Assembly: GCF_018446385.1 (NCBI RefSeq)
Contig: NC_055987.1
Span: 36,947,702-37,011,701 of the forward strand
DNA from: Zingiber officinale
Taxonomy: Eukaryota; Streptophyta; Magnoliopsida; Zingiberales; Zingiberaceae
Length of the DNA stretch: 64,000 nucleotides
Reading direction: 5' to 3'
A model generated the notes under the pieces. That model worked only from the letters and a program-made list of their open reading frames with translations. It searched no databases and was not told the DNA's origin. Below, piece by piece: positions 13,010 to 42,493 of this stretch (the first letter of the stretch is position 1; every line of letters begins with the position of its first letter). The translations under genes and the position numbers were made by a program.

Positions 13010-13730
13010 TGTCGGTCCGCATAGGGTCAACTAGAGGGGGATGAATAGTCTTGAAAATAGAGTTATAAAAATCTCTTTCTTTTCAAACTAGCAAGGATAA
13101 ATAATTAAACAACTATAAATAAATTAATCAATAACATAAAAAAGAGGTAGGATTTATTTGGTTACAATGTAAGTGGTTGTTAATCCAAGACAAATAAAAG
13201 CTCTTTAAGAATATACTTTGTTGAAGGCAGAGAAGTTTCTTACAATCATTGACAACTCTGTAAGGAGTATAAAAATTGATGACAAGTTGTTGTGCTTAAC
13301 TCCTAGCCCCAGGATGCTATTTATAGCATTCTAGATAGCTGTTGCCGTTGGTTTCCATGGGTTGGAGGCACCTCCAATGACATCCAGGGTACCTTCAGTG
13401 GATAACAACGGTTTCCACAAAAAGGTGCCTTCCACAAAAAGGTGCGAGGGCACCTCCAACATTATTGGAGGCACCTTCCACTGGGCTGCTCGACTAGTTA
13501 ACCTTCAAAACTGGTTAACTCTTTGTCGCTCTTCTTTGGGTGATGCTCATGCCTTCCGGAGTTGAGCTCACCTGAACCCAACTCTGACTTTCTTTTCGAG
13601 CAGTCTTCCTCCATGACTTCTCATCCCTTGAATGTCGCACATATCCTTCTTGTCCATCGGTGTACTCTTTCGCAGCACTTCGTCCCTTACATACACCGAG
13701 CATGTCGACTCGCTTCCTATTGTTAGAGTG
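13010..13730 (-). mobile_element. LTR A, left part (SIRE-like family), interrupted at 13730
   Basis: It reads like the SIRE-type LTRs elsewhere in the window: GAGGGGGATGAATAG near the edge, GGTTACAATGTAAGTGGTTG, TTAATCCAAGACAAAT, then an array of GGAGGCACCTCC-like palindromes (13362-13480), then TCGGTGTACTCTTTCGCAG. The last part aligns with 29465-29500 of LTR 2. Its continuation is found at 28452-28595, so a 14.7-kb insertion splits it. Confidence 0.65.
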
Positions 13731-16779: not shown

Positions 16780-18343
16780 AGTCGAAGTCCCACACGATGA
16801 CGCCCTGATCATTCGAGCGGTAATAGCTAACTATACTATTCACCATATTTTCATTGACACAGGCAGCTCGGTCAACATAATATTCAAGAAGGCCTTCGAC
16901 CAGCTGCAAATAGACCGAGCTGAACTCCTGCCAATGACGATCCCCCTCTACGGGTTCACTGGGAACGAAGTCTTGCCGGTCGGCCAGGTCCGGCTAGCTA
17001 TCTCGTTGGGCGAGGAGCCGCTCAGAAGGACAAGGACCACCACCTTCATCGTGGTCTATGCTCCTTCGGCGTACAATGTTATCTTGGGACGACCGGCTCT
17101 CAATGAGTTCCGGGCGATCGTCTCTACCTTCTTCCAGAAGATCAAGTTCTCGGTGGAAGATCAAGTAGGGGAAATGCGAGGAGATCAACTGGCCGCTCGA
17201 AGATTCTATGTGGAGATGGTCCGAGCCGAGGCCAAGTCCGCTCGGAAAGTACCGCAGTTCGAGGTAAATACTATAACCGAGAAACCACCTTCTTTGGTTT
17301 ATGAAGAAAAGGAGGAGGTGCAGATTGATTCTTCCCAACTGGAGGCCACCACTTTTATAGCATCCGACCTGGAGGCGAGGCAGAAGGAAAAGCTGATCAA
17401 ATGCCTACAGCGAAACTGTGACGTCTTCGCTTGGTCGACCCATGAGCTGCCAGGGGTCTCACCGAGCGTAGCGCAGCACGAGCTTCACGTCCGGCCGGAC
17501 CGTCGGCCAGTGAAGCAAAGGAAGAGGGACTTTAGCGTTGAGAAAAATGTAATCATCTGGGCGGAGGTAGAGAAGCTTCTGGAGGCCGGCCACATAAGGG
17601 AAGTGCAATTCCCGAGTTGGCTCGCAAATGTGATTCTGGTCTCCAAGCCGGGCAACAAGTGGAGAGTCTGCATCGACTTCCGGGACTTGAACAAGGCATG
17701 CCCGAAGGACTTCTACCCCCTACCCCGGATCGATCAACTGGTGGACTCCACGGCCGGGTGCGAGCTGATATGCATGCTGGATGCATACCAAGACTACCAC
17801 CAAGTGCCGCTCGCCCGAGAAGACCAGGAGAAGGTCAGCTTCGTCACGGCGGACGTCACCTACTGCTACAATGTAATGCCGTTCTGGCTAAAGAATGCAG
17901 GAGCCACCTACCAGCGTCTGATGAACAAGGTCTTCAGGGAGCAGATCGGACGCAACTTGGAAGTGTACGTGGACGACATACTTATCAAGTCCTTCCGGGC
18001 GGCCGATCTCTATGCGGATATGGAGGAGACCTTCCAAACATTAAGAAGATATGACGTCAAACTTAACCCTCAGAAGTGCCTGTTCAGAGCAAAAGGCGGG
18101 CGCTTCCTGGGTTACATTGTGACCGAGCGGGGCATAGAGGCGAACCCCAGCAAGATAAAGGCATTACAAGACATGCCGCCTCCCAGAAATCTCCGAGAGG
18201 TACAACGTCTCACCGGTCGGATAACGGCGCTGTCAAGGTTTATCTCTAAGACCGCCGATCGGAGCCTGCTATTCTTTAAGATTTTCGTAAAGCCACCAAG
18301 TTTCAATGGGACGAGGAGTGCGATCGGGCATTCGAGGAACTGA
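16780..18343 (+). pseudogene. Tat protease and reverse transcriptase
   Basis: An aspartic protease motif (IFIDTGSSVNII) is readable at 16848-16885, followed by GFTGNEVLPVGQVRLAISLG and NVILGRPALNEF. The reverse transcriptase follows with KWRVCIDFRDLNKACPKD, YPLPRIDQLVDSTAG, MLDAYQDYHQVPLA, the NAGATYQRLMNKVF block and the catalytic YVDDILIKS (about 17966). The longest single frame is 16934-18343. It ends by a frame change near 18290, because homologous text (FQWDEECDRAFEELK) continues in another frame. In a live element this polyprotein would be cleaved by the protease, and the RT would copy element RNA in the particle. Here it is broken. Confidence 0.85.
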
Positions 18344-19936
18344 AGACTTACCTGAATTCCTTACCCATGTTGGCAAAATCGGCCGTAGGTGAGCCACTCC
18401 ACATTTATTTATCTTCAACTGAGCATGCTGTGGGCTCAGCATTAGTAAGGCCGAGCGGCGAAGAACAACCAGTGTACTTTTTAAGCCATATCTTAAAGGA
18501 TGCTGAGTCTCGTTACACCGGTCTTGAGAAGTAGGCTTTCGCCTTGGTCCTTACCGCTCGGAGGTTGCGCCCTTACTTTTTGGCGCACACCATTATTGTG
18601 ATGATGAATAGCCCGCTGGCAAGGGTACTCCTGAACCCTGAAGCATCCGGACGACTCATCAAGTGAACGACGGAGCTAAGCGAATTTGACATCCAATACC
18701 AACCCTGCTCGGCGATCAAAGCACAGTCCTTGGCAGATTTCGTGACCAAGGTACAAAAGCCCGAGCCCGAAGCTACATGGAAAATATATGTGGACGGATC
18801 GTCCACTCGGCTCGGAAGCGGAATTGGGATCCTGCTACTTTCACCTCAGGGAGAGCGGATGCATTTGTCCGTCCGGCTGGACTATCGGGCAACAAATAAT
18901 GAGGCAGAGTACGAAGCCCTCATAGCCGGATTGCAGGCCGCTCGGCATGTTGGAGCCAGCCAGGTGGTGATTCACTCAGATTCCCAACTAGTCGCTCAAC
19001 AACTCGTGGGGGCCTTTGAGATAAACAATGCAAGACTCAGGTTGTACGCGGACGCCTTTGAAAAACTCAAGACTAGATTCACCGAGGTGGTGGTCCAGAA
19101 GATACCCCGAGCGGAGAACCAGGCGGCAGATGAATTAGCCAAGCTCGCAAGCTTGATATCGCCGGTCGTCATCCAGCAACCAATCGAGCAAGTATCCTTG
19201 GTAGCGCACATAGACCGGATGGAAGGCCTCACATTCCTGAGCGATTGGAGAACAACCATCATGGAGTTTCTACGCTCAGGGGCCACGTCATCCGATCGGG
19301 ACGAAGCTCAGCTACTAAGGAGGAGAGCCGGCCGGTTCACGCTCATCGGAGATCAACTTTACAAAAAGGCGTTCTCCCGACCTTTGCTGAAGTGTGTCAG
19401 TTTGGAAGACGCCGAGTACATTCTCCAGGAGGTACACCAAGGATCTTGCGGAGGTCATCCGAGCGGTCGGTCTTTGGCTAGGAAGATCCTGCTGGCCGGA
19501 TACTTCTGGCCAACGCTACACGAGGATGTCGCTCGAACCGTCGCAACGTGTCTTTCCTGTCAGAAGTACCACAATTGTTCTCATAGGCCGACGGAAGAAA
19601 TGAAAGCGTCCACAGTTTCCTGCCCGTTCGACCAGTGGGGCATGGACATCATAGGACCCTTCCCTATGGCGACCGGACAACGGAAGTTTCTATTGGTGGC
19701 AATAGATTACTTCTCCAAGTGGGTGGAGGCCGAGCCATTGGCCAAGATAACCGAGCAGGTGGTCAAGAAATTCATCTGGCAACACATCATCTGTCGGTTC
19801 GGCATCCCGCGTCGGCTCGTGTCGGACAACGGGTGACAGTTTGTCGGAAAGCAGCTCGAGGAATGGTGCAAGGGATATGGCATTGAGCAACACTTCACGT
19901 CTGTGGCATATCCCCAAAGCAATGGTCGAGCAACAC
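18344..19936 (+). pseudogene. Tat RNase H, second RNase H and truncated integrase
   Basis: After the frame change, the RT-linked RNase H continues (PLHIYLSSTEHAVGSALV, QPVYFLSHILKDAESRY) with in-frame stops at about 18532 and 18664. The open frame 18730-19836 then encodes an archaeal-type RNase H (WKIYVDGSSTRLGSGIGI, NNEAEYEALIAGL, SDSQLVAQQL), characteristic of the Tat clade. The integrase follows, with an HHCC-like zinc region (GSCGGHPSGRSLARKIL, CLSCQKYHN) and the start of the catalytic core (FDQWGMDIIGPFP, FGIPRRLVSDNG). A TGA at 19834-19836 interrupts it. Homology continues to AYPQSNGRA (about 19930), where the sequence switches to copia on the other strand. Confidence 0.85.
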
Positions 19937-24166: not shown

Positions 24167-24180
24167 GCTCTGATACCAAT
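24167..24180 (-). other. Primer binding site of the copia element
   Basis: The plus strand reads GCTCTGATACCAAT directly against the LTR. The reverse complement, ATTGGTATCAGAGC, is the tRNA-iMet-type PBS of plant copia elements. Confidence 0.85.
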
Positions 24181-26557
24181 TGTTGGTTGCTACTCGGAAA
24201 ACCTAATGGTTCCACTGTACAAAAATTTTGTACAAAGGTCTGAACCTTTTTCCTAGCTACCATGTGTTCTTTTAAATTAAACTTGGATCGCCTGCGGAAC
24301 TTAACACGTTTGATCCAAATTTAATCTATTTGTTCTTTTAGGTTTTGACTTGGATTTCCTGCGGAACTTAACACGTTCGATCCAAATCACCTAGGTTATT
24401 AATTCCATTAAATATTAATTTCCAAAATTAGTTTCCAGTATTGACGTGGCGAGGCACATGACCTTCTTGGATATGGGAGCAACCACCACCGACTAGACAA
24501 AACCTTTTAAGGAAAACTAATATTTAATTTCCTAAAATAACTTTAGGTCAATCAAAAAGAACAATCAAATCACAAGGAAAAGAAAAACAAAAGAACATTA
24601 CATCGAAAACAAATTCGAAACACTAAAAATCGTATGCCTCTTGTATTTGGTATTATTTCCAAAAATAACTAGTATGATGCGAAAAGGAAAAATACTAGTT
24701 ATACCTTCTAGAAAGACCTCTTGATCTTCTACCGTATTCCTCTTCTAACCTCGGACGTTGTGTGGGCAACGATCTTCCAAGATGAGGACCACCAAAACAC
24801 CTTCTTCTCCTCCTTGCTAGGTTCAGCCAAATCAAAAGCTACACCAAGGATGAAGAAAAACACCAACCAAACTCCAAGGGATGAAAGCTTTCTCTCCTTC
24901 TTCTTCTTCTTCTCCAAGTAGTATCCGGCCACCACAAAGAGCTCCAAGCAAGAGAGGGTTTCGGCCACCACAAAGAGGAAGAGATGGAGAGAGGATGGCT
25001 AACCACAACACCAAGGAAAAGAGGGAGAGAATAATAGAGGTCGTGTCTCATGAAGGCACCCCAACCCCCTCTTTTATATTCCTTAGCTTTGGTAAATAAG
25101 GAAATTTAATTATAATAAAATTTCCTTAACTTTCCTTGACATGAATTAATTGAGAAAAATAAAATAAAATTTCCCAATTAAACTTGTAATGGCCGGCCAC
25201 CTCATGGAGAGCAAACAAGACAATTTTCAATCAACAATTAAAAATTCCTTACTTGTCTTCAGAAATTTTAAAAAATAAAATTTCCCTTTAAAATCCCTTC
25301 ATGGTTGATAAAAAGAAATTTCTATAATTTTAATTTTTCAACATGTGAATAATTTCAAAGAGAAAAAATAAAATATCTTTCCTATCTACAAATAAGGAAA
25401 GAGATCTAATCTCTTTTCTTAATCTTTTGTATAAGAGATATTTTAATTTTAATTCTCTTCAATAAATTATATCTTCCACATAAGAAAAATTTAAAATTAA
25501 AAATCTTTTAAATTAATGGGCTGGGTTCAAGCTAGGGCCGGCCACCCATGAACCAAGGCTTGGCCGGCCCTAGCTTGAACCATAAGCTAGCTTGGCCGAC
25601 CCCCTTATCATGGGTATGAAGGTGGGTATAGGTGGGTATAGTACTCTATAAATAAGAGGCTACGATAGGGACCGAGAGGAGGAATTAGTTTTGGTCTCCA
25701 GATAAAATTAAGCATCCCGTGTTCGCCCCGAACACACAACTTAATTTTATCAATAATAATTCATTCCACTAGAGAACTATTATTGAACTACCGCACCAAT
25801 CCCAAATTACATTTTTGGGCTCCTTCTTATTATGAGTGTGTTAGTCTCCCTGTGTTTAAGATGTCGAATGCCCACTAATTAAGTGAGTTACTGACAACTC
25901 ATTTAATTAATATCTTAATCCAAGAATAGTACCAGTCAACCTTATCGTCATGTCGGACTAAGTCCACCTGCAGGGTTTAACATGACAATCTTTATGAGCT
26001 CATCTTGGGGACATTATCAACCTAGATTACTAGGACACAGTTTCCTTCTATAATCAACAACACACACTATAAGTGATATCATTTCTCAACTTATCGGGCT
26101 TATTGATTCATCGAACTAAATCTCACCCATTGATAAATTAAAGAAATAAATATTAAATATATGTGCTTGTTATTATATTAGGATTAAGAGCACACACTTT
26201 CATAATAACTGAGGTATTTGTTCCTTTATAAAGTCAGTATAAAAAAAACAACCTCAAATGGTCCTACTCAATACACTCTAAGTGTACTAGTGTAATTATA
26301 TAGTTAAGATAAACTAATTCCTAATTACACTACGACCTTCAAATGGTTTGTTCCTTTCCATTTTGGTCGTGAGCTACTGTTTATAATTTATAAGGTACTG
26401 ATAACATCCTCTTCTGTATGTGGCACCATATACTATGTTATCTACAATATAAATTAATTGAACAACTACAACTAAATGTAGACAATTTGACCAAATGTGA
26501 TTCTTTATTCAAAATAAATGTTTACAAAAGCTTAGGCTTTCAGTATACACTCTAACA
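24181..26557 (-). repeat. Copia 5' LTR (LTR B family), complete
   Basis: 2377 bp. On the plus strand it runs from TGTTGGTTGC to CTCTAACA. It contains the palindromic TACAAAAATTTTGTACA near its PBS-proximal edge (about 24218), shared by all LTR B copies. ORFs inside are chance. Confidence 0.8.
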
Positions 26558-26701
26558 CCTCTCTCGTCGGAGGGCCGTCGCCGGGAAACCCCTCCCGGCT
26601 AGGCTTCTTTGCAGGTTCGTCGGAAATCTACGCCACCAGTCGGAGACAGCAGAGCGTGCCACGTCCCCAGCGTCCGTCGACTCAGCGCTCGGACAGGATC
26701 A
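26558..26701 (+). repeat. 3' LTR remnant of the Tat element
   Basis: It is about 90% similar to the last 160 bp of the 5' LTR, with a 16-bp internal gap after CCTCTCTCG. Its left part is missing and replaced by the end of the copia LTR. Confidence 0.85.
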
Positions 26702-28451
26702 GTGGACATTTGTTATCTTAAACACGGGGAGACTAACACACTCATATATGAAGAAGCCCATAATATAATTTGGGATTGGTGAGGTAGTGCAATAATAACT
26801 CTCTAGTGGAATGAGTTATTATTGATGAACTTGAGTTGTGTGTTCGGGGTGAACACGGGATACTCAAGCTCATCGGAAGGCCAAAATCAATTTCTCCTCT
26901 AGGTCCCTGTCGTAGCCTCATTAAAGCCTTAAGTCCATTCAAATAAAAACCCTTTTTGGTGTCCAAGAAGGAGGCCAGCCCAAGGCTTGGTGACCAAGCA
27001 AGGGCCGACCACCATCTCCTCTTTAGGGGCCGACCCTTTGCTTGGTGTCCAAGCAATGAAGGGCCGACCACAATTTGTTAAATAAGGAGGGGTGTTTTGA
27101 ATTTTTAAAATCTTCTCTTTGTAGAAAACTATAAGTTTTAAAAGAGAAATTTTAAAATATAAAACTTTCCTTGTTTGAATTAGGCCACATGGTTTAATAG
27201 AGAGTTTTATAAGTTTTAAAACTTTCTTTTTTTAACCATCCTCATGGTTTTAAAAAAAAGGAAGAGAAGTTTTAAAATTAAAATTTTCTATTTTTTTAAC
27301 CATGTTAAAAAAGGAAATTTTTAGAAGAGAAGTTTTAAATTTTAAAACATGTTTTTAATTTTTAAAACTTTCCTTTTTTAACATCCACTTTAGGAAAAAG
27401 AGCTTGTAAAATTTTATAAGAGGATTTCTTCTTTTATAAAATTTTATAAAATTTTTTCTTCCCCATGATGATGTGGCCGACCACCCTTGCTTGGTGCCCA
27501 AGCAAGGGGCCAGCCAAATTAAATCTCGAATCAATCCATGATTGGTGATTGATTCAATCAAGAGGAAAGAAAAGGAAAAATAAAAGGGGAAAAGGAAAAA
27601 CAAGAGGAAGATTTTAATTTTTGTAAAAAGTCTTTCCTTATTTTCCTTGGGCAAGTATTATAAAAGAAGGGGAGGAGAGACCACATGACATAACAATTCT
27701 TATTCTCTTGCTTGGTGATCCTCTTGTGGCCGGCCCTCTCTCCCTCTCTTTTCCCCTTGCTTTCTTTTGCTCCTTGGTGGTGGTGGTGGCCGAATTCTAG
27801 AGGAGGAGGAAGAAGGCTTTGGGTGGTGTTCATCTTGGAGGATCGTCGCCCACACGACGTCCAAGGTGAGACGAGGAATACGACAGAAGATCTCGAGGTC
27901 ATTAGTATACAAAGAGAAGATATAATTAGCAATTATTTTCCGCATCATGCTAGTTATTTTTCTTTGTAAGCATTCCAAACACAAGAGGCATTAGATTCTA
28001 ATTTTTCGGATTTGTTTTGAAGTTGTGTTTTCTTTGTTTTGTTTTTCGAATTTATGATTCGATTGTTCCTTTTGGTTAAACCTAGAGTTATATAAGGAAA
28101 TTAAATATTAGCTTTCTTTAAAAGGCTTTGCCTAGGCAGTGGTGGATGCTCCCATACCCAAGAAGGCCATGTGCCTCGCCATGTAGTCTTGGAAGCCAAT
28201 TTTAGAAATTAATATTTAATGGAATTTATAACATAGGTGGATTTGGATCAATAGTGTTAAGTTCCGTTTGCGATCCAAATCTAAACCATTAAGAACAAAT
28301 AAATTAAATTTGGAATCAATGATGTTAAGTTCCGTCTGCGATTCCTAATTTAACTTCTAAAGAACACAATAAGTCATTTAGGAAAGGTTTGACACTTGTA
28401 CAAAATTTTTGTACAGTGGAACCGGTACGATCTTCTTAGGACTAACCAACA
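26702..28451 (+). mobile_element. LTR B, right part (continuation of 13731-14411)
   Basis: It starts GTGGACATTTGTTATC. The same sequence appears uninterrupted at about 39140 in the third copy (AATTAGTGGACATTTG), which acts as the empty site. It ends CAGTGGAACCGG through CTAACCAACA at 28451. ORFs inside (27355-27984 minus, 27712-27969 plus) are LTR sequence, not genes. Confidence 0.8.
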
Positions 28452-28635: not shown

Positions 28636-29656
28636 TGTTGGTCCCTTTGGAGGTTGGCTAGAAGGGGGGGGGGAGTTGAATAGCCTGAAAATAAAAACGC
28701 AACCCTTCTCAAACTTTTAAACTAACACTTGCATAAATAAAGTAAAAATAAAATATAAAAGGAAGTAAAAGGCAGACAGAGATTTACTTGGTTACAATCG
28801 GGGAGGTTGTTAATCCAAGGAAGATGAAGCACTAGTATCTCCTTCAGGCGGAGAAGCTTTTTACAATGTTTAAGCACAGAAATAGAAGCTCAACTCTAAA
28901 CTAAAGCACACAAGCGTTGGAATTATAATTCTTGAGTTCGTTGAAAAGCTTCTGGACCAAAGCTATATTTATACCTTTGGTTGGGGCGCTCCGAAGGGTT
29001 TCGGGCGCCCTGGGAGGGATAAAACTTTATCCCTAATGTTTAGATTGAGTCAAATCTCGATATGATCAAATATCGACTTCCGGGCGCCCCGGTACGGTCC
29101 GGGCGCCCCGGTCTGTTCTGGGCGCCTCGGGCGAGAAAGTCAACCTCGTTGACTTTTTTCAGCCCGGGTCTTCTGCTCCGGCTTCGTTCGCCTCAGACCA
29201 AGTCTTCCGCTCGCTTGGGTGATCTCTGCCATCCAGAATAGGGCTCACCCGAACCCAACTTCCGGTCTTCTCGAGCAGGTTTCTGCTCCGGCTTCTCGTC
29301 CCTCGGAATCGCCGCGTGGTTCCTTCTCGTCCGCCAACGTACTCATCCGCAGTTTTTGTCCCTCAGTCGCACCCCGTGCCGACCTTCTCTCTAGCTGCGT
29401 CTCTTGCTCCTCGAGCAATCTTCCACTTCGGCTTCTCGTCCCTCGGAACCACCGCACACTTCCTTCTCATCCGTCGGTGTACTCTTCCGTAGTGCCTCGT
29501 CCCTCGGACGTATCGCGTGTCATCCTTCTCGCTAGCTGCGTCTTCCGCTCGACTACCTATGCTCCTAAGCTCCTGCACACTTAAACACAAGGTTAGAAAC
29601 ACACAAGACCTAACTTAACTTATTGATCATACTAAAACAACCTTGGGGTTCCAATA
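28636..29656 (-). repeat. LTR 2, left (3') copy, with GGGCGCCC palindrome array
   Basis: It starts TGTTGGTCCC and ends near GGTTCCAATA (the expected CA terminus appears changed). It carries CCGGGCGCCCCGG at 29080-29092 and 29099-29111, and variants at 28983, 29002 and 29119. The right copy at 38552-38822 matches its first 270 bp. Confidence 0.7.
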
Positions 29657-30572
29657 ATCTCCCCCTTTTTGATGTGATCAACCTAAGTTAAGCTAGGGTT
29701 AAAATAGACATAAAATAAACAATTTATATTGTAATAACGTGCAACAAGATAGAAAAATTAAATTTCAAAAAAATTTTAATTTCTACCTCCCCCTAGACTT
29801 ATACTTTTTCTTCTCCCCCTTTGATCACATAAAAAATTGGGGTTGCAAGAAAAATCTAAGGGTTGACACTTAGAAAAATTATAAAAATCTATTCCAATGA
29901 TTTTCTTGAAAATATTTTTAAGTCAAGGAAAATTTCTAAGTCAAAAATAACTTTTGAAAAAATTTCTTAAGTTTTTGTCATCAAGAATTAAGAACTTTCT
30001 AAGCTGAAAACTTTATGTAAGAAAATTTAAAAAAGAAATTTGAGAACATTTATAAAAAAATTTTCTATGTATTTATTTTATTTTATTTTAATTCTAATGC
30101 TTTTATCAGAAAGTTTTAAAATTTCATTTTAATTTACCATAACTTCTTAAATCACACTTTTACAGATTTAAAGCAACCAATATTAAACATGCAAAAAATT
30201 ATATCATGTTAATTTATATTATTAGTTTGTCGAGATTCTTTAATCGACAAACTATTTCTTTTGACTTAATATTTTTTGTTATATTTTGAATTTCTAATTC
30301 ATAAAAATATTTCGATAATATAAATTCTAACTTGATAGAGTTTTTCGACAGTATTTCTAATTTACAAAATTCGTTCGACAAAATATTTTGTAATTTGCAA
30401 AATTTATTTGACAGAAGATTTTCTAATCCGAAAAACTTTTTCGATGATTCAATTTCTAATTCGCAGAATTCTTTTGGCGACTTTTCGATTGATTTAACTA
30501 ATTGTTCAGAAGGTGGAGACCATACCTGACTTACCTTGTCAGCAGTTGATTCTCCCCCTGTCGAGTTACTTT
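29657..30572 (-). pseudogene. Element 2 internal gag-like region, distal part
   Basis: Read on the minus strand from 30572, it gives a repetitive low-complexity frame (SPPSEQLVKSIEKSPKEFCE, then SSKKFFGLENLLSNKFC-like units with a recurring [EQ]F-C-x-L-E/Q-N pattern) and then AT-rich sequence to the PPT at about 29660. This looks like a linker of a SIRE-type gag. No zinc knuckle or enzyme is seen. The opposite end of the same ORF system lies at 38058-38429. Confidence 0.45.
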
Positions 30573-32190
30573 TGTTAGGACCAAAATGTAGCTAGAGGGG
30601 GGGGGGTTGAATAGCTCAGTGCGATCTTCGTGCTTGACGTTTCTTGTTTCTTCAAAGATGTGCAGCGGAAATACAAGAAACATTACAACAATGCTAACAA
30701 ATGGATTTTACTTGGTATCCACCTCACAAGAGGTAACTAATCCAAGGATCCACACACTCACGCACCCTCCACTATGAAAACACTCCTTCTCGGTAACTAC
30801 CGAAGGCGGAGAAGCCTTACAACCTCACAATACAACAATGAGAAAGAAAGAAGCAAAATACAAATGAATCTTACAAGATTACAATGAAAACCCTAGCTTC
30901 TTCTTCTTCTTGTTGCAAATCGCCTCTTGACTTGGATGAGCCTCCAAGAACCTTCAAGAACTGGCGGTGAGAAAGTAAAGATCGCTGTGGAGAAGTTCTG
31001 TGTTCATCTGTCAAGAAGAGAGGAAGTCGTGTCGAAGAAAACGCTCGCCAACATCTATATTTGCGTCAACGGTCGAATCCCAATCGATTGAATTGCTCCC
31101 AATCGATTGGGGAGGCTTTGGATCGATTGATCAATAGATCCAAAGCGCCTCTGTGCTATCTGGAATCGCCTTGAATCGATTGCCCGATCGATTCAAGGCT
31201 TCTCGAGCGATTTCCAACGCTCCAATCAATCGCCCGATCGATTGGAGGCTTCAATCGATCAATTGATCGATTTAGAAGCTTGCTATTCACTCAGAAACTC
31301 TCTCAATCGATCGACCGATTGATTGGGGAAGTTTCAATCGATTACCCAATCGATTCAGCCCATTTCTGCATGAATTCACGTCAACCAATCGATCCACTGA
31401 TCGATTGAACCCCCCAATCGATCAGCCAATCGATTGGGAAGCAGAAATCTGTGCAGAGCTTGAAATTAGCTTCGTTTCGCATCCGAGATCACCTCATTCC
31501 GATATCTGAGTCAAAAGTTATGGTTTTCGGAAGTTTACTACGTCCGAACTTCCTAGTTCCATGCCAACTCCCTATTGGACTTACGGTCGTTAAGACTTCG
31601 GTCAACTTTTGGCTCATCTGGACTTTCTTTTTGTGCCAAGTGTCCGGTCCTCCATTACCCACTTGGACTTCCACCAGATGTTTGGTCAACCTTGACCCAT
31701 CTGGATTTTCCCCGTGCCTGGCTTCACTCACCAGGACTTCCATTCTGCCTAGCTTCACTCACTATGACTTCTCTTCTGCCTGGCTTCACTCACCAGGACT
31801 TTCACCTAGCTTCACTCACTAGGATTTTTCTTTTGCCTAGCTTCACTCACTAGGTCTTTCACCTGGCTTCACTCACCAGGACTTTCACCTAGCTTCACTC
31901 ACTAGGATTTTTCTTCTGCCTAGCTTCACTCACTAGGTCTTTCACCTGGCTTCATTCACCAGGATTTCCCTTCTGCCTAACATCCCAGTTAGGACTTCCC
32001 AGTCAAGTATCTGGTCAACCTTGACCTTCTTGACTCTTCTTCAACCAACCTGATCAGACCCTGATCAGAGGGGAATTGCACCAAACAATCTCCCCAAATG
32101 AACAACTGCATTGTCAAACATCGAAACCCAAACCAAGACTCAAGCTCGGTCAACTAGGTCAGCCTTGACCTGAGGGATATTGCGCCAACA
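30573..32190 (-). repeat. LTR 3, left copy, with ATCGAT array
   Basis: It runs from TGTTAGGACC to GCGCCAACA. An array of paired ATCGAT boxes lies at 31080-31440, and short CTTCACTCACYAGGAYTT repeats fill 31720-31980. ORFs here (31451-31853) are repeat translation only. Confidence 0.8.
31720..31985. repeat. Short tandem repeat of CTTCACTCACYAGGAYTT type in LTR 3
   Basis: Roughly ten degenerate units of about 27-30 bp, CTAGCTTCACTCACTAGGA alternating with CTGGCTTCACTCACCAGGA, end to end. The inner part is itself self-complementary in places (CCTAG and CTAGG, CCTGG and CCAGG). The same array is at about 37550-37800. Confidence 0.75.
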
Positions 32191-34499
32191 ATCTCCCCCT
32201 TTTTGATATTTGACAATACCACATTTAAGTTAGGCTAATCCCATAGCCTCAACCTCCTTCATGCCACTAGGTAATGAAGGCATAAGTTAAACCCTTCATT
32301 CTCCTCCTAAGAGGGCAAACTCCCTCTAGGTAATGGAGTCCTAACTTAACCATGCATTCTCCCCCTATTGACACACATCACAAACATGCCCCCATATTTG
32401 GGCACACATCAAAAACAACACCTCCCCCTGAAGAGTTGCTTATCGTTGTTCACAACTTCACTCGTTGTGATCACCATGATAATGAAGATCCCATACCCTT
32501 CATTATCATCAACGCTCACCCTTGAGCATTAACCACTTGAATAACCCAAATGAAGGTCCCATACCCTTCATTTTTATCAAATGCTCATCCATGAGCAAAC
32601 TCCACTTAAACAATGAGGATACCTACTCCTCATTAATTTCAATGCCCAACCTTGAGCATTTTCTGAAAAGAAGGTTAACCACCTTCCAAGGTTCATGAAA
32701 AATAGTTTTCATGTCTTAAAGAGTCCCTTCCCTTAAAGACATGGTGGTAACTTCTGTCATTGCACCAACAATGACATGGAATCCCTAAACCTTTAGAAAA
32801 CCTAAATTTAGAAGTTTTGAGGTTCAAATATTCAATATTTGAAGCAAACCTCAACCTAAACTTCTACTTAGTCTCCCAATCCATCCTTGTTTTCAACATG
32901 AAAACACCATTTTTATGTATACAAATGCACTTTTAAGGGTTTGGAATGGTTACCTAGACTAACCATGGTTCAAAAATGCTGAAATCAGGCTTAACCAGCC
33001 AAAATCAACAACTTTGATCGATTGGGGTTGGGTCCCAATCGATCGGACCATGCTGAATCGATCCACTGATAGATTCAGGAGGGCTGGATTGATCGGTGGA
33101 TCGATCCAGACGGCTTCTATTTGCGAGAAGCCTGTTCTCAATCGATCGTCCGATCGATTGAGACCCTTTAATCGATCACCCGATCGATTGAGGTCTGATA
33201 GTTGCTGAAAGTTCATTTTAGTCAACTTCAGAAACCCCTAGAAAATTCTACAAAATTCTAAAAATCGTGAAAATTTGTGTAGACATTATTTAGGGTATAT
33301 ATTTTCAAGAAAAAAATAGTTTTCTAAGAAAATACATCATATTTTCAAAGATTGACACAAACTTGAAAACTTACAAAAACTTTAGTATTTTCTTCAAGTT
33401 TGTGTCTTACTATTCAATGATGATTACTATCAAAAGATAGCCTTCACCAAGGTTTTCCAAAATTATTTTAAAACCATTTTCAAAACCAATATCCCACCAT
33501 GTTCCTTGGGTTTAATGCATATGACTTGTACACTAGCTTTCCCAATGATGGGAACACACATAACTATGTGTTTTGATGAACTTAAAACTCAAAAGAATGC
33601 ACCAAATCAACATCTTGAGTTTTGTTCATCATCCTAACATCTCACTTGAATCTACTGTGCACTAAAACACATACAAGTCACCTTATAGGTCTTTGTGAGA
33701 TGTAGATTTTGGTTTTGTCCTAATCTAGGGATCATGCATCTCTATCTAGGCATTTTGAGTGGCAAACATCCACCAAGGATGTTACTTGTTTATATCACCT
33801 GTTGATAAATGTCATTTGTCCTTAATTTTAAGGAAATAAACATAATGCATGATAATGTTATGGCATACATCAAAAAGAAATAATTTTCAAAAGAAAATTT
33901 CCTATAACTAGATGATGTATGTATGTCATGACATGGTATTTTTGTGTTTTTCATCATAAGGTACGAATGCAAAAATAATCATGATGTCATGGCATATAGT
34001 GAGCAAACAATCATGGCAAGGTTTAGCATAGATAAAATACCTAGATTACCTATCTAAGTGTCCTTAAACCTTAGCTAACTTAAAATCTAACCTAGATTGC
34101 CCTCTAAACGCTCCAAGAAAATGCCAAAATCTAAATTGACATTTTTAATTCTCTTGACAAAATTTATGCCGATTGAAATTAAGCATATTCCTCAAGTGTT
34201 GACATATTTCATTTTTCCACAAGAGTAGCACATTTAATTAAGGCTTAGATTTGCCTTAAATTACTAAGAAAATACCAACGTCCCAACTTGGTATTTCTTA
34301 TGCTTTCCCAAATTGTGCTAATTAAAAATAAAATCAATACTTATCAAATTTGGCACATTTTACTCTTTCAAAGAGTAAATCATAAATCCATTTCATTTTC
34401 AAAGGGTTAATAATAACCTTGAAAATGCTCCTTGAGTGTCAATTTCTTCAAAGTTGGGTTAACTACCCTTTTTCTTAGAGTTGACACTCTCTAACCCAT
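32191..34499. other. Element 3 internal non-coding region
   Basis: After the PPT there is no coding frame. It contains CCCTTCATTNTCATCAA-type short repeats (32290-32660) and the ATCGAT block. The rest is AT-rich. It lies where pol would be in an autonomous copy. Confidence 0.55.
33010..33200. repeat. Internal ATCGAT palindrome array of element 3
   Basis: Outside the LTRs, this block repeats the LTR-type motifs (GATCGATTGGGG, CAATCGATCGG, CAATCGATCGTCCGATCGAT, ATCGATCACCCGATCGATTG). The sequence flanking it is not LTR sequence. Confidence 0.75.
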
Positions 34500-35132
34500 C
34501 TATGGGGTAGAGAAGATGCTCCTAGGAATCCAAAATCTATTGGTGCTCCTTGGATGCTCTAGGTACTCACTAGGGATAACTTCCCTAGATACCTTCCTAG
34601 TGACCTTGTTTGACTTCTTAGAAGCCTTGGTCACCTTTTCTAGGTCAACCCTAGGGATTGCTTCCCTTGTGACCTTCTTTGTGACTCTCTTAGACATCTT
34701 AGAAGTCTTAGACACGTTTGTTGCAAAAATACTCTTAGGGATGACCTCCCTAGTATTCTTGACTTGACCACTAGACCTAGGGTTTGTTCCATAACTATAT
34801 GGAACTCTATGATAAGTAGGTACATCCTTTTTGGTTTTAGGTTTGTATCCCAAACCTCTATGGCCCTTGGATGACCCTCGTTGCCCTAAACCTAGATTTT
34901 GCTCATTTTGCCCTTTAAGAATATTTTCCATCCTTTTTAGGGTCTTTTCTAGTTTGTCAAGTCTTGATCTCAAGACTTGATTCTCCATTGCTAAGTTCTT
35001 AGTTTTTGGTTTCCCATTAAGTCCATGAGCATTTTGGTTTCTAGGCTTGTAGCTAAAATCCTTAGTGTTATTGCCTAGACTTTTACCTATCTTCCTAGAC
35101 CTAGGTTTGGTTGTCTTAGCATGGAGAGCCAC
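34500..35132 (-). pseudogene. Element 3 basic gag C-terminal ORF
   Basis: A 210-codon frame without enzyme motifs. The N-terminal half is basic and Asn/Gly-rich, with a leucine heptad stretch (MENQVLRSRLDKLEKTLKRM). The C-terminal half holds three related units with the core V-x-R-E-[VA]-I-P (NTREVIPKSIFA, KVTREAIPRVDL, KVSREVIPSEYL) separated by Lys/Ser-rich linkers. It follows the zinc-knuckle ORF with a gap of about 100 bp and is probably part of one original gag. Charge and coiled coil suggest nucleic-acid binding or particle assembly; that is inference. Confidence 0.5.
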
Positions 35133-35238
35133 ATGATTTTCTTTGATAACATCATGCCTCCTATTTTCATGGTAAATAGCATTAAAATGATATAGATTAG
35201 AACTATCATGCTTTTTACCATTGTTTAAGGGGGTAGGT

Positions 35239-36297
35239 TCAATGAATGATACCTTCCTTTTTTACCTTGGAGGCTCCCCCTTGAGTTGTGCTTCCTCCTT
35301 GAGCATTGACCGCCTTCTTCCCCTTAGGGCATTGACTTCGGTAATGCCCCTTTTGATTGCAAGAGAAGCACACAATGTGCTCCTTGCTCTTCTTTGTGTT
35401 GGGGATGGTCTCCTTGGGCTTCTCCTTGCCCTTTTGTGCCACTTGGCCCTTCTTCTTGACCAATTTAGGGCATTTACTTTTGTAATGCCCTTTTTCCCTA
35501 CATTCAAAACATATAATATGATTTTTATTTTTAAATGAACTATTTATACCTTCTTGTGTAGGGGTGACTTCTTCTCCTTTGGATCCGGATGTGGAGGCTT
35601 CCTCTTGATCCGATGATGATTCTCCTCCAATAGATATGACTTGATTTGTGGAGGTGGAAGCTTCTTCATCCTCTTCTCTTCTTGACCCGGATGTGGAGAC
35701 TTCTCCTTCTTCTTGATCCGGTGTCACCAAAAGTTGCTCCCCCTCAATCCTAAAGGTGGAGACTTCTTCATCTTCATCTTGTACATGGAACAAGGAGTAT
35801 GCTCCCTCCTTGTTCCCTTCATTGCATTCCCTCGAAGATGAAGCTTCGTCTTGGACTTCTTCTTCGGAAGTTGAGCATCTCTCAACTTCGAAGTCCTCCT
35901 CTTGGTATTGCTCCAATGAGTCACCCTCTTTAGATTCCTCTTGATTCGGTATAGTGGAGGGGATCTCATGGATTGATGCCAATTTGCTCCAAAGCTCCTT
36001 TGCATCTTCAAATTCTCCAATTTTGCAAAGAATGGTGCTTGGCAATAAATTAACCAATAATTTGGTTACCTTGTTATTCGCCTCACACCTTTGAATTTGT
36101 TCTTAGCTCCATTTGCTCTTCTTGAGGATTTTGCCCTTTGAGTTTCTTGGAGCCTCGAAGCCTTCCAATAGAGCAAACCATTGCTCTATCTCCATCATCA
36201 AGAAATTTTCAATTCTTGATCTCCAAGAATCGAAGCTTGTAGATACATATGGTGGAGGCACCCTTGTGTCGAATCCAAGTCCGTCTTGAAATTCCAT
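35239..36297 (-). pseudogene. Element 3 gag with two CCHC zinc knuckles
   Basis: Two adjoining minus-strand frames (36297-36103 and 36057-35239) are separated by one stop or frame change near 36100. The upstream part has the gag-opening pattern PPYVSTSFDSWRSRIENFLM. The downstream part has EFEDAKELWSKLASIHE, then a long Glu/Ser-rich acidic region with repeats of EEASTSGS type, then two zinc knuckles (CFECREKGHYKSKCPK and CFSCNQKGHYRSQCPK) about 40 residues apart. It ends with a Lys-rich tail. CCHC knuckles bind element RNA in gag. The acidic repeat region is unusually long. The frame break suggests it is no longer expressed whole. Confidence 0.75.
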
Positions 36298-36420
36298 GTT
36301 GAAGATGAGCTTGAAGAAATCTTTGACTTGAAGAATTTTGCTCCAACTTCTTCACCCTCTAGCTCTTTGCCCCTTCCGGCGATGATTCCGGTGAAGAGCG
36401 GCCTTGCTCTGATACCACTT

Positions 36421-38018
36421 GCTAGAGGGGGGGAGGGTGAATAGCTCGGTGCGATCTTCGAACTTGACGTTACTTGTTTCTTCAAAGATGTGCAGCGGAA
36501 ATACAAGAAACACTACAACAATGCTAACAAATGGATTTTACTTGGTATCCACCTCACAAGGGGTGACTAATCCAAGGATTCACACACTCACGCATCCTTC
36601 ACTATGAAAACACTCCTTCTCGGTAACTACCGAAGGCGGAGAAGCCTTACAACCTCACAATACAACAATGAGAAAGAAAGAAGCAAAATACAAATGAATC
36701 TACAAGATTACAATGAAAATCCTAGCTTCTTCTTCTTCTTGTTGCAAATCGCCTCTTGACTTGGATGAGCCTCCAAGAACCTTCAAGAACCGGCGGTGAG
36801 GAAGTAAAGATCGCTGTGGAGAAGTTCTGTGTTCGTCTGTCGAGAAGAGAGGAAGCCGTGTCGAAGAAAACGCTCGCTAACGTCTATATTTACGTCAACG
36901 GTCGAATCCCAATCGATTAGATTGCTCCCAATCGATTGGGGAGGCTTTGGATCGATCGACCGATCGATCCAGAGAGCCTCTGTGCTCTCTGGAATCGCCT
37001 TGAATCGATTGCCTGATCGATTCAAGGCTTCTCGAGCGATTTCCAGCGCTCCAATCGATCGCCCGATCGATTGGAGGCTTCAATCGATCAATTGATCGAT
37101 TTAGAATCTTATTGTTCACTCAGAAACTCTCCCAATTGATCGACTGATCGATTGGGGAAGTTTCAATCGATTACCCAATCGATTCAGGCCATTTCTGCAT
37201 GAATTCATGTCAACCAATCGATCCACTGATCGATTGAACCCCCCAATCGATCAGCCAATCGATTGGGAAGCAGAAATCTGTGCAGAGCTTGAAATTAGCT
37301 TCGTTTCGCATCCGAGATCACCTCATTCCGATATCTGAGTCAAAATTTATGGTTTTCGGAAGTTTACTACGTCCGAACTTCCTACTTCCATGCCAACTCC
37401 CTATTGGACTTACGACCGTTAAGACTTCGGTCAACTTTTGACTCATCTGGACTTTCTCTTTGTGCCAAGTGTTCGGTCCTCCATTACCCACTTGGACTTC
37501 CACCAGATGTCTGGTCAACCTTGACCCATCTGGATTTTCCCCGTGCCTGACTTCACTCACCAGGACTTCCATTCTGCCTAGCTTCACTCACTAGGACTTC
37601 TCTTCTGCCTGACTTCATTCACTAGGACTTTCACTTAGCTTTAATCACTAGGATTTTTCTTCTGCCTAGCTTCACTCACTAGGTCTTTCACTTGGCTTCA
37701 CTCACCAGACTTTCACCTAGCTTCACTCACTAGGATTTTTCTTCTGCCTACCTTCACTCACTAGGTCTTTCACCTGGCTTCACTCACCAGGATTTCCCTT
37801 CTGCCTAACATCCCAGTTAGGACTTCCCAGTCAAGTATCTGGTCAACCTTGACCTTCTTGACTCTTCTTCAACCAACCTGATCAGACCCTGATCAGAGGG
37901 GAATTGCACCAAACAATCTCCCCAAATGAACAACTGCATTGTCAAACATCGAAACCCAAACCAAGACTCAAGCTCGGTCAACCAGGTCAGCCTTGACCTG
38001 AGGGATATTGCACCAACA
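36421..38018 (-). repeat. LTR 3, right copy, with ATCGAT array
   Basis: It aligns to 30590-32190 with few differences but lacks the first 17 or so bases (TGTTAGGACC...). The array is at 36905-37265 and the CTTCACTCACTAGG repeats are at 37550-37800. It ends CACCAACA at 38018. Confidence 0.8.
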
Positions 38019-38551
38019 GCTTTCTTCCCAAGTCTCTCTCCCTTCATCGATGCTCATCTAGGATGAGCTTTTTGTAGCTTCGGGATGGAGTTCGGCTGTC
38101 TCGGCAGTTTCCTCATTCTCGGACTGTTCTGACAGTGACTTGGTGTCCATCGAGGAGTTGGATTCAACTTCAGCTTGTACTTCATAGATCTTGAAGAACT
38201 TTTCCCAAAGTTCTTTTGCACTTTTATATTCTTCGACTGTGTCGAGATCTTCATTTGGTATTACGCTTAGCAGGTGAACTTCTGCCTGAGCGTTTGCCAT
38301 ACTCTCCTCACGTTGCTTCTCGGTCCAGAGATATTTCTTGATTTCTTCTCCATTCGTTGTCTTTGGTGCTTCATAACCAAATTTCATTATTAAAGAAATA
38401 CCAAAATCTGTGTTTAGATATACCTCCATTTGTTGCTTCCAAAAAGCAAACTCCCCCTCGAATGCTGGTGGGTAGACGCTAGCTCCGACTATCGTTTTAT
38501 TGCTTCGATCGGCAGTTAGTCCTGTTGAAGCGCCTTGGCTCTGATACCACT
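38019..38551 (-). pseudogene. Element 2 gag N-terminal part and primer binding site
   Basis: The minus-strand frame 38429-38058 matches the N-terminal gag (UBN2/DUF4219-type) of copia elements: FGYEAPKTTNGEEIKKYLWT, ANAQAEVHLLSVIPNEDLD and YKSAKELWEKFFKIYEVQAE. Upstream, the phrase QQMEVYLNTDFG-like sequence and the PBS (mirrored GGCTCTGATACCAC, about 38536-38550) lie next to the LTR. The frame is cut by the insertion of element 3 near 38019, with a 5-bp near-duplication (GCTTT at 38019-38023 and ACTTT at 30568-30572). Confidence 0.65.
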
Positions 38552-38822
38552 TGTTGGTCCCTTTAGAGGCCGGCTAGAAGGGGGGTTGAATAGCCTGAAA
38601 ATAAAAACGCAATCCTTCTCGAACTCTTAAACTAACACTTGCATAAATAAAGTAAACAATAAAACATAAAGGAAGTAAAAGGCAGACAGAGATTTACTTG
38701 GTTACAACCAGGGAGGTTGTTAATCCAAGGAAGATGAAATACTAGTATCTCCTTCAGGCGGAGAAGCCTTTTACAGTGTTTAAGCATAGAAACAGAAGCT
38801 CAACTCTAAACTAAAGCACACA
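38552..38822 (-). repeat. LTR 2, right (5') copy, truncated
   Basis: Matches 28636-28912 of the left LTR from TGTTGGTCCC to AAAGCACACAAG, then switches abruptly to LTR B sequence at TGTGTGCTCTTAATCC. Confidence 0.75.
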
Positions 38823-40920
38823 AGTGTGTGCTCTTAATCCTAATATAATAACAAGCATATATATTTAGTATTTATTTCTTTAACTTATCAAAAGGTGAGA
38901 TTTAGCTTGATAAATCAATATGCCCGATAAATTGGGAAATGATATTACTTATAGTGTGTATTGTTGATTATAGAAGGAAACTATGTCCTAGTAATCTAGG
39001 TTGAGAATGTCCCCAAGAGGAGCTCATAAGGATTGTCATGTTAAACCCTGCAGATGGACTTAGTCCGACATGACAATGAGGTTGAGTGGTATTACTCTTG
39101 GAGCTAGATATAAATTAAGTGAGTTGTCAGTAACTTACTTAATTAGTGGACATTTGTTATCTTAAACATAGGGAGACTAACACACTCATGATAAGAAGGA
39201 GCTCATAATGTAATTTGGGATTGGTGCGGTAGTGCAATAATAACTCTATAGTGGAATGGGCTATTATTGACGAACTTGAGTTGTGTGTTCAGGGCGAACA
39301 CGGGATACTCAAGCTCATCGGAAGGCCAAAACCAATTTCTCCTCTAGGTCCCTGTCGTAGCCTCATTAAAGCCTCAAGTCCATCCAAATAAAAGCCCTTC
39401 TTGATGTCCAAGAAAAGGCCGGCCTAAGGCTTGGTGACCAAGCCAAGGGCCGACCACCATCTTCTCTTAAGGGGCGGGTCGGCCCCTTGCTTGGTGCCCA
39501 AGCAAGAAGGGGCCGACCACAATAATTCAAAGATGAGGGTGTGTTTTGAATTTTTAAAATCTTCTCTTTGTAGATATCTACAAGTTTTAAAAGAGATATT
39601 TTAAATTTAAAAACTTTCCTTATTTGAATTAGGCCACATGGTTTAAAAGAAAGTTTAAAAAATTTTAAAACTTTCCTTTTTTAACCATCCTCATGGTTTT
39701 AAGGAAAAACGAAGAGAAGTTTTAAATTTGAAAATTTTCTATTTTTGTAACCATGTTAAAAAAGGAAATTTTTAGAAGAGAAGTTTTAAATTTTAAAACA
39801 TGGTTTTAATTTTTAAAACTTTTCTTTTTTAACATTCACTTTAGGAAATTAAAAGAGAGCTTGTAAAATTTTATAAGGGTTTTTTCTTTACTTATAAAAT
39901 TTTTACAAGGATTATTTCTTTCCTTTTAATTGTGGCCGGCCACCTTTGCTTGGTGCCCAAGCAAGGGGGCAGCCAATCATCCTTTAAAAGATTCAATCAA
40001 TTAAATCAATCAATGATTGGTGATTGAATCAATCAAGAGGAAAGAAAAGGAAAAATAAAAGGGGAAAAGGAAAAACAAGAGGAAGATTTTAATTTTTGTA
40101 AAAATTCTTTCCTTATTTGCCTTGGGCAAGTAATATAAAAGAAGGGGAGAGGAGGCCTCATGGGATAACAATTCTTATTCTCAAGTTGGTGCTTCCTCTT
40201 GTGGTCGGCCCTCTCCCTCTTCTTATCCCCTTGCTCTCTTTTGTTCCCTTGAGGTGGTGGTGGCCGAAACATAGAGAAGGAGAAGAAGGTTTTTGGGTGG
40301 TGTTCATCTTGGAGGATCGTCACCCACACGACGTCCAAGGTAAAGCGAGGAATACGGTAGAAGATCTCGAGGTCATTAGCATACAAAGAGAAGGTATAAC
40401 TAGTAATTTTCTTCCGCATCATGCTAGTTATTTTTCTTTGTATGAATTCCAAACACAAGAGACAATAGATTCTATTTTTTCGGATTTGTTATTCGAGTTT
40501 GTGTTTTTGTTTTTCGAATTTGTGATTCGATTATTTCTTTTGGTTAAACCTAGAGTTATATAAGGAAATTAAATATTAGCTTTCCTTAAAAGGCTTTGTC
40601 TAGGAAGTGGTGGTTGCTCCCATATCTAAGAAGTCCTAGTGTCTCGCCATGTTTAACCTGGAAGCCAATTTTGGAAATTAATATTTAATTGAATTTATAA
40701 CATAGGTGGATTTGGATCAATAGTGTTAAGTTCCGCTTGCGATCCAAGTCTAAACCATTAAGAACAGATAAGTTAAATTTGGAATCAATAATGTTAAGTT
40801 CCGTTTGCGATTCCTAATTTAACTTCTAAAGAACACAATAGGTTATTTAGAAAAGGTTCGACGTTTGTACAAAATTTTTGTACAGTGGAACCGGTACGAT
40901 CTTCCTAGGACTAACCAACA
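38823..40920 (+). mobile_element. LTR B, third copy, 5'-truncated
   Basis: It aligns with 14090-14411 followed directly by 26707-28451, so it provides the uninterrupted version of the Tat insertion site (AATTAGTGGACATTTG at about 39140). It lacks the first 350 or so bases of the LTR. It ends CTAACCAACA at 40920. ORFs inside are not genes. Confidence 0.8.
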
Positions 40921-42493
40921 AATCTTACTTATACTTGGTTTTTGAGTCTTTCCCTATTTTTGATGTGTGTCAAAGGGGGAGTTGTTTAACTCAGGGGGAG
41001 AGTTAAAATTTAAAATTGCTTGTTTATTCAATTATTGCATATTTTAACTTTACTTTGAACATTGGTTGCCAAACATCAAAAAGGGGGAGATTATTGATGC
41101 AAGTTGCACCAGAATCAAACCTAAGTTTTGATGTTGTCAAAGGTTCAAATTAAGTCTTGTTATGATCTAACAAGTTGACTGAGTGTGTAGGATGTTTACT
41201 CAACCAGGAAAGACCTAGTTGGAGGCTAGGCAGGAGAAATCTTAGCAGATCGTGGAACCCAGGTGCAAGTCCAAGTAGGTCGAGGAGACCCGAATCTTGG
41301 CAATGTGATCAAGAGGTCTGGAGGACCGAAGATCAAGAGAAAAGTCCTGGGGAGTCGACCAAGGGTAAGTGAAAAGTCCAAACTAGATCTGGAGGATCAA
41401 AGTTTGGCAGGTAGGTTGAGGTAAACAAACTGGAGGAGCGACGGTGAGGTCGTGTTCCTGAAGGGAATAACCTAAGGTCGCTGATCCAACTGAAGAAACC
41501 AGGAAGGTTTCAAAGTTGAGATCAAGACGGTTCTACTGTCTTTCATATTACTTTTGCATTATAATATTATTGTTCTAACATTTGTTTTGCAGAAGATTTT
41601 TGGTTAACACTATTTTGTAGGTACAACTGGATCGGTCGACCGAACAAGGCAAAATCATATTCAAACCAGACCAGAACAGAGTTCAAGTCTGATCAAATAC
41701 TGATCGGTTGACCGAATCTTATGATCGGTTGACCAAACTGAGATGACTCAGCACAGACAACAACGATCAGAGCAGAAGGAAAGCACACTGATCGGTCGAC
41801 CGAACCAATCAGCATTAAAGGCGCATTAACTGTTGATCTCGGCAAATCACGACGAACAGGGAAGGAAGTTGTTCGTTCGATCGGAAAAAGGGTTCGGTCG
41901 ACCGAACCCTTAAAGAGCATTGATTGCCAGAGATCGAGCCAGCGTCAGACTCTAGCCAGGAAGGAAGGGAGCGTGTTCAGCCGACCGAACAAGGAGGATC
42001 GGTTGACTGAACGTCCAGTACACCTATAAAAGGAGGATCAACGTCTGAGGTTGAAGAAGACTGACTACTTCTGATTAACTCAAGTGCTCTTCTGCAAGCT
42101 GCTCGTGCTACAAGTATTCGTCAACTCTGCAAGCCACTTCGTTCGATAGTACCGATCGAGCTTCGACTTTCAACTACTATTGTCGGTATATCTTATTTTG
42201 TACTGCACTTAATTTCATGTAAGATAGTAGGAGTGTTACTATTTTACATCTTTGTATCTGTACGATCCACTTCTTTCCGAGGATTTCGGAAAGAAGGGTT
42301 ATAGTGTTTTGCCCATCGGAGCAGTCAAGGACTGTGGGCCTTCAAGTAGGAGTCGAGCTAGGCTCCGAACGAAGTAAACAGCTTTGTCCATTTTCTTATT
42401 TTCCGCTGTACAATTCTGTTTTAAAAGAAAAAGATAACTTTTAAAGAAAGCGATATTCACCCCCCTCTATCGCTAGCATCCGATCTATCAACA
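40921..42493 (+). mobile_element. SIRE-like element 4: PPT and 3' LTR only
   Basis: A short internal remnant (40921-41094) ends in a polypurine tract, CATCAAAAAGGGGGAGATTA (41075-41094). The LTR follows from TGATGCAAGTTGC (41095) to CTATCAACA (42493). The LTR contains GGTCGACC palindromes at 41630-42010. Orientation is plus, opposite to elements 2 and 3. Confidence 0.7.

Follow-up and report, generated by a model that had tools for sequence, protein, structure and literature searches.

Several long terminal repeats (LTRs) of retrotransposons in a 64,000-nucleotide stretch of Zingiber officinale DNA (the window: RefSeq assembly GCF_018446385.1, contig NC_055987.1, positions 36,947,702 to 37,011,701) carry arrays of short palindromes whose motif differs from family to family, which raises the question of what these arrays are and what might read them. 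A preliminary description of the window took them for an undescribed system. That claim of novelty does not hold, since family-specific palindromic repeated motifs (RMs) upstream of the TATA box have already been described in the LTRs of Sireviruses, the Ty1/copia elements of the SIRE lineage (Bousios et al. 2010, BMC Genomics 11:89, PMC2829016), and the arrays are almost certainly the RM boxes of such Sireviruses. The best explanation overall, which we consider likely, is that these RM boxes act as promoter-proximal, double-stranded factor sites.

Within the window, arrays were located in the LTRs designated A, 2, 3 and 4, and in LTR 3b, the partner of LTR 3 (Table 1). ATCGAT occurs as an exact word 15 times in LTR 3 and 17 times in LTR 3b. 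The LTR 4 array comprises eight units with at most three mismatches from TCGGTCGACCGA, several of them in pairs 21-22 bp apart, and TCGGTCGACCGA itself is found three times in this LTR (41632, 41792, 41894). LTR 2 has four GGCGCC words, two in the form CCGGGCGCCCCGG (29080, 29099) and the final three spaced at 19 bp (29083/29102/29121), and an exact word count found no GGCGCC in the internal pieces of element 2. In LTR A, one exact GGAGGCACCTCC (13364) and five words of the form GG[CT][GA]CC were observed, with two word pairs at 21-bp spacing (13367/13388, 13449/13470). Long dyads include 31168-31199 and 31413-31438 in LTR 3 and 41888-41911 in LTR 4. Short direct repeats resembling CCTAGCTTCACTCACTAGGACTT were also seen in the U3 of LTR 3, upstream of its palindrome array (31715-31979).

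Dyads with arms of at least 5, nested dyads included, were compared with those in 300 dinucleotide shuffles. At gaps of up to 3, the observed number was reached by 1 shuffle for LTR 3b, 1 for LTR 4, 31 for LTR 2, 33 for LTR 3 and 104 for LTR A; for gapless dyads the figures were 1 (LTR 3), 9 (LTR 3b) and 0 (LTR 4), and LTRs A and 2 contained no gapless dyad with arms of this length. Each of eight control LTR stretches outside the arrays was matched by at least 50 of the 300 shuffles. At one or both gap settings, LTRs 3, 3b and 4 exceed chance; LTR 2 is a borderline case, and LTR A on its own stays within chance expectation. By this measure, the proposal that each LTR has its own palindrome array is strongly upheld for LTRs 3 and 4 and more weakly for LTR 2, but not for LTR A by itself, nor for the Tat LTR (14500-14760) that had been put forward as a further case, which contains no dyad with arms of at least 5 at gaps of up to 3 and two dyads with a 5-base gap. 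The Tat LTR was dropped as a candidate, 11 of 16 sense-strand matches to CCG[AT][CG]CGG lying in the Tat internal region (15393-19459). The GGAGGCACCTCC of LTR A is a single CpG-to-CpA step away from the GGAGGCGCCTCC of a sampled LTR (L065), so decay is a likely reason for the weakness of this array.

The coordinates confirm for LTRs A, 2, 3 and 4 that the array lies about 350-860 bp from the end of the LTR on the side of the primer binding site (PBS), as the preliminary description had it. Read in element orientation, each of the four arrays lies directly upstream of a TATA-like box and so falls within promoter-proximal U3. The motifs said to be shared beside the arrays were recovered less uniformly: their exact words are missing from LTR 4, and LTR A has GGCAGAGAAG and LTR 3 CTAATCCAAG instead. 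Toward R/U5, the words (T/C)TAATCCAAG and GGC(G/A)GAGAAG are common to LTRs A, 2 and 3 (13180-13235, 28810-28856, 30737-30814, 36567-36644), and CCAAG and CTTGG near them could, judged by eye, pair in RNA.

Further Sirevirus traits were looked for in the same elements. The terminal polypurine tract (PPT), AGGGGGAG, is joined by several more PPT octamers in the linker, octamers being located at 32200, 32366 and 32429 in element 3, at 29666, 29794, 29820 and 30559 in element 2, and at 40974, 40993 and 41082 before LTR 4. Following its terminal PPT, element 3 has the exact AT/TG attachment site; elements 2 and 4 read ATTATTG. The Sirevirus junction of 5' LTR and PBS, CA/A(T or G)TGG plus TATCAGAGC, is present as CAAGTGGTATCAGAGC in elements 2 and 3, and none was seen in the sequence available for A or 4. 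A pattern for the C-rich integrase signal near the 3' end of the LTR matched A, 3, 3b and 4 and missed LTR 2, in which a C-rich run is present by eye; an inverted repeat around the terminal PPT was noted in element 3 only, by eye and unscored. All four LTRs (A, 2, 3 and 4) seem to belong to a single lineage rather than to unrelated LTR types.

We then turned to the genome (3,090,333,446 bases, 211 contigs). The expectation that arrays recur in other copies of the same families was borne out for LTR 3 (40 of 4566 candidates scored) and LTR 4 (40 of 4124), and in part for LTR A, for which the 40 of 357 candidates scored include one copy at 92%, but the rest are at 70-73% or of part length. GGCGCC words of the LTR 2 type also occur in sampled LTRs such as L031 and L062. 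The sequence CAAAAAGGGGGAGATTG, which marks PPT/3' LTR junctions, has 22,601 forward and 22,808 reverse occurrences, and 0 when read backwards. Our sample consists of 3 kb around the first 40 such junctions listed on contig C1; it is not random, and its linkers were read for about 1.5 kb upstream only. GC-containing dyads with arms of at least 8 numbered 126 in the LTRs compared to 3.5 expected, and 70 in the linkers compared to 1.3 expected, exceeding all 40 shuffles of the same site at 24 and 17 of the 40 sites, respectively. At least two units were present in 35 of the 40 LTRs and fewer in five; by class, the former comprise 16 GGCGCC, 11 GATCGGTC and 7 ATCGAT sites, plus a mixed GTCGAC set in L042. 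TATA[AT]A follows downstream in 25 of these 35 LTRs, no more than 60 bp from the last unit in 18 of the 25. The dyad closest upstream of TATA is a different one, CTAGCCGTTGCGACGCAACGGCTAG, in several LTRs of the GATCGGTC class (1126, 1201, 1148 and 1066 bases after the LTR start in L029, L035, L040 and L046, respectively).

Arrays were also observed in the linker. In element 3, this second array, absent from the preliminary description, contains eight ATCGAT words and two dyads (arms of at least 8) built on them, a dyad count matched by 24 of 300 shuffles. In the sample, same-class linker units accompany 0 of 16 GGCGCC, 9 of 11 GATCGGTC and 7 of 7 ATCGAT sites. In the two main classes with linker arrays (16 sites), the linker motif is of the same class as that of its own LTR, and among the 40 sampled sites there was no GATCGGTC site with ATCGAT linker units, nor the reverse. 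L042 is a weak match, with five AGTCGACT words in its linker and one in its LTR. The stretch of L049, an ATCGAT element, overlaps that of L048 and carries at its far end three GATCGGTC units that are probably part of the L048 element. The agreement in class between LTR and linker implies that each element has a single reader, which either host or element would supply. No sense-strand open reading frame (ORF) longer than 125 aa reaches past the linker array in any of the 16 sampled sites, a decayed or deleted env being possible.

Searches for units in the GATCGGTC and ATCGAT classes allowed gaps of 2-6; a gap of 4 was found in 66 of 78 distinct GATCGGTC units (84 in all) and in 54 of 54 distinct ATCGAT units (57 in all). 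Symmetry extends two bases beyond the core in GATCGGTC and three in GGCGCC; in ATCGAT, taken with a core shorter by one base, it also extends three, with weaker signs to six. In the GATCGGTC flanks, the next two bases are paired in 83% and 88% of cases compared to 46% and 53% after shuffling, and the third in 38% compared to 32%. Family 4 yielded 213 units (at most three mismatches from TCGGTCGACCGA) in 23 of 24 copies, the remaining copy, L055, giving none since its TATA anchor was misplaced. Among its 98 spacings under 26 bp, 91 are exactly 21 bp, and longer spacings run from 60 to 88. C-to-T or G-to-A changes make up 148 of the 178 substitutions, and 108 of the 148 fall in CpG, a bias consistent with the decay that methylated arrays would be expected to undergo.

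Genome-wide, neighbour pairs at gaps of 1-31 outnumber their reversed controls: 208,771 vs 4 for GATCGGTC..GACCGATC and, counted on one strand, 163,862 vs 2,173 for GGCGCC, 129,138 vs 12 for GACCGATC..GATCGGTC and 16,997 vs 79 for GGTCGACC. Spacing is 21 bp in 41 of the first 50 GGTCGACC pairs listed, with varied bases between, 19-21 bp in 66 of the first 100 GGCGCC pairs listed, and 31-33 in 47 of the first 100 GACCGATC..GATCGGTC pairs listed. When neighbour spacings are pooled, a peak appears at about 10.5 bp (R 0.64, n 61; R 0.68, n 35) among copies that share ancestry; distinct spacings gave P values of 0.017, 0.011 and 0.008 at a preset 10.5 bp.

Gains and losses in family 4 involve whole units, which would fit palindromes that are a functionless by-product of copying, through tandem duplication and fold-back template switching, as would dyads symmetric well beyond the core, such as 41888-41911. 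We consider this improbable, given that the arrays occupy the same two places across different families, that they lie near TATA, and that elements of grapevine and tobacco carry similar motifs (PMC2829016).

Sites for a dimeric factor would fit the nearness of the arrays to TATA, the near-fixed spacing across varied intervening bases, and a symmetry that survives a change of motif. Each palindrome would then be bound, as double-stranded DNA, by a dimeric factor, probably a transcription factor of the host, and this binding may activate or tune the element promoter; arrays would expand and contract through tandem duplication, and families would switch motif yet keep symmetry. We infer that this mechanism is somewhat more probable than not. 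The motifs held in common with grapevine and tobacco elements suggest a reader common to flowering plants. According to PMC2829016, no common factor could be named for RM boxes, and our literature search, judged from titles and abstract openings, found no named RM-box binding factor. The sampled genome, the units and the TATA positions all support the preliminary description of the arrays as family-specific, positionally conserved, quickly changing and probably functional.

The main rival to dimeric-factor sites is that the palindromes act as RNA or single-strand hairpins, feeding small-RNA silencing or serving packaging or dimerisation. The U3 of the 3' LTR and the linker both lie inside element RNA, so hairpins there could act. 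RNA folding gave z values of -11.4 (LTR 3), -7.0 (LTR 4), -4.9 (LTR 2), -3.1 (A) and -2.8 (Tat), compared to -3.4 for a part of LTR 3 beyond its array, so that folding of A and Tat is not above this single control. Maize palindromes have also been reported as small-RNA hotspots (2016 maize work, as cited in PMC10760457 and PMC5311732), and the ATCGAT class shows 26 paired double changes and 26 one-sided changes, 17 of which keep a G.U pair and 9 of which break pairing. Flank covariation is no proof of base pairing, however, because whole units duplicate. Selection on an RNA stem should make sense-strand C-to-T changes, which leave G.U, exceed G-to-A; the counts were 69 vs 79 in family 4, 11 vs 8 in GATCGGTC and 40 vs 28 in ATCGAT (the GGCGCC class, scored without mismatches, is uninformative here), and this test of stem selection was set aside as its bias is inconsistent across the three. 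Moreover, family-4 units are gapless palindromes at a fixed 21-bp repeat, and the arrays sit close to the TATA box. Taken together, we regard the hairpin explanation as possible but rather unlikely.

Several observations weigh against promoter-proximal factor sites. The strong folding of LTRs 3 and 4 fits hairpins equally, and duplication of whole units could have passed on both the fixed spacing and the flank symmetry. In the sample, TATA lies more than 60 bp away in 7 of the 25 cases (605 bp at most), and TATA[AT]A is missing downstream at 10 of the 35 sites. Helical phasing is weak: P values for distinct spacings become 0.48, 0.61 and 0.39 once periods are scanned, the genome-wide spacing list has no peak at 10.5, and 15 of the first 100 GATCGGTC spacings listed fall at 45-49 bp, off helical phase. 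Given shared ancestry, the period scan and the genome-wide list, phasing as a general rule is suggestive only.

The arrays are very abundant and real, strong in LTRs 3 and 4 and weaker in LTRs 2 and A, yet the feature is already known for the Sirevirus group (PMC2829016). Their significance lies in the 208,771 GATCGGTC..GACCGATC pairs and the co-resident motif classes, which make the question of the reader testable in one plant: a separate reader is predicted for every motif class, and a common one for the LTR and linker arrays within an element. It is conceivable, if improbable, that class-matched LTR and linker arrays form an address code for self-versus-other recognition, in which a factor, element-coded or drawn from host paralogues, would read a single palindrome class set at fixed steps and would activate or de-silence elements of that class alone, leaving co-resident Sirevirus families regulated apart.

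The elements that carry these arrays are partly nested. Element 3 is on the minus strand and has an LTR pair (95.8% identity between LTRs 3 and 3b), a PBS, a terminal PPT and a gag-like frame with zinc knuckles, the latter being all that a Pfam scan of the element detected. It is inserted (30573-38018) within element 2 (28636-38824), whose 5' LTR starts near 38552 and is interrupted near 38824 by the family at 38822-40920. LTR 4 is oriented on the plus strand, and LTR A is a truncated Sirevirus-like LTR fragment on the minus strand. The other LTR-like family, at 26698-28451 and 38822-40920, has its own TTGCTTGGTGCCCAAGCAA-type palindromes (27038, 27484, 39428, 39486, 39946), which stand upstream of a TATAAAA (40134); it also shows a conserved dyad, TGTACAAAATTTTTGTACA (24216, 28397, 40866). 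Related pieces lie at 24180-24814, 25653-26557 and 13721-14410.

Table 1. Coordinates of arrays and associated features in the window.
Feature	Positions	Strand	Basis or remark
LTR A array, GGAGGCACCTCC / GGYRCC words	13362..13480	-	word counts, dyads
LTR 2 array, GGCGCC core, CCGGGCGCCCCGG	28983..29131	-	word counts, shuffles
LTR 3 array, ATCGAT palindromes, many as CAATCGATC-n4-GATCGATTG pairs	31080..31440	-	dyads, folding, counts
LTR 4 array, TCGGTCGACCGA palindromes	41630..42015	+	word counts, shuffles, folding
Second ATCGAT array of element 3, in linker between gag-like frames and PPT	32990..33190	-	
TATA box of LTR A	13319..13326	-	about 36 bp downstream of array in element orientation
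TATA box of LTR 2	28967..28974	-	pattern match
TATA-like AATATAGA of LTR 3	31054..31061	-	non-canonical; pattern added after sequence was inspected
TATA box of LTR 4	42025..42031	+	pattern match
LTR 2, 3' LTR of element 2	28636..29656	-	ends by eye from PPT and TG/CA ends
LTR 3, 3' LTR of element 3	30573..32190	-	sequence comparison with partner LTR
LTR 3b, 5' LTR of element 3	36421..38018	-	ATCGAT array at about 36903-37267
PBS TGGTATCAGAGC of element 3	36406..36417	-	pattern match
PBS of element 2	38538..38549		pattern match
Terminal PPT AGGGGGAG of element 3, then AT/TG	32193..32200	-	pattern match

Compared with known systems, the arrays most resemble Sirevirus RM boxes as presented in PMC2829016, being short, family-specific palindromes in many copies upstream of TATA in the LTR, with linker copies of the LTR motif in some elements. 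Individual motifs agree as well: the LTR 4 core CGGTCGACCG equals the RM listed for a grapevine element in Table 3 of that paper, and the LTR 3 core CAATCGATTG is nested in the ACAATCGATTGT listed there for tobacco Tnd-1. Unlike the 2010 set, several motif classes occur together in one genome here. The CGG-CCG core is present in TCGGTCGACCGA, GATCGGTC-n4-GACCGATC and CCGGGCGCCCGG but absent from the ATCGAT and GGAGGCGCCTCC forms, which differ in this from the published signature, as does Tnd-1. The linker arrays here have no ORF longer than 125 aa after them, whereas linker RM copies in the 2010 set went with an env-like gene. The 2016 maize study (via PMC10760457 and PMC5311732) likewise concerns palindromes in the LTR regulatory region, but rests on small-RNA mapping, the present analysis on sequence. 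The targets of VANC in Arabidopsis VANDAL elements (Hosaka et al. 2017, PMC5735166) are similar in that short motifs lie in non-coding tandem repeats and turn over quickly among related elements; VANDALs, however, are DNA transposons that are known to encode the binding protein themselves, and their YAGTATTAC motif is non-palindromic. To the known picture of RM boxes, Z. officinale adds coexisting motif classes, two cores similar to published eudicot RMs, near-fixed unit spacing (21 bp in family 4), decay that is mostly C-to-T/G-to-A, and linker arrays without an ORF longer than 125 aa.

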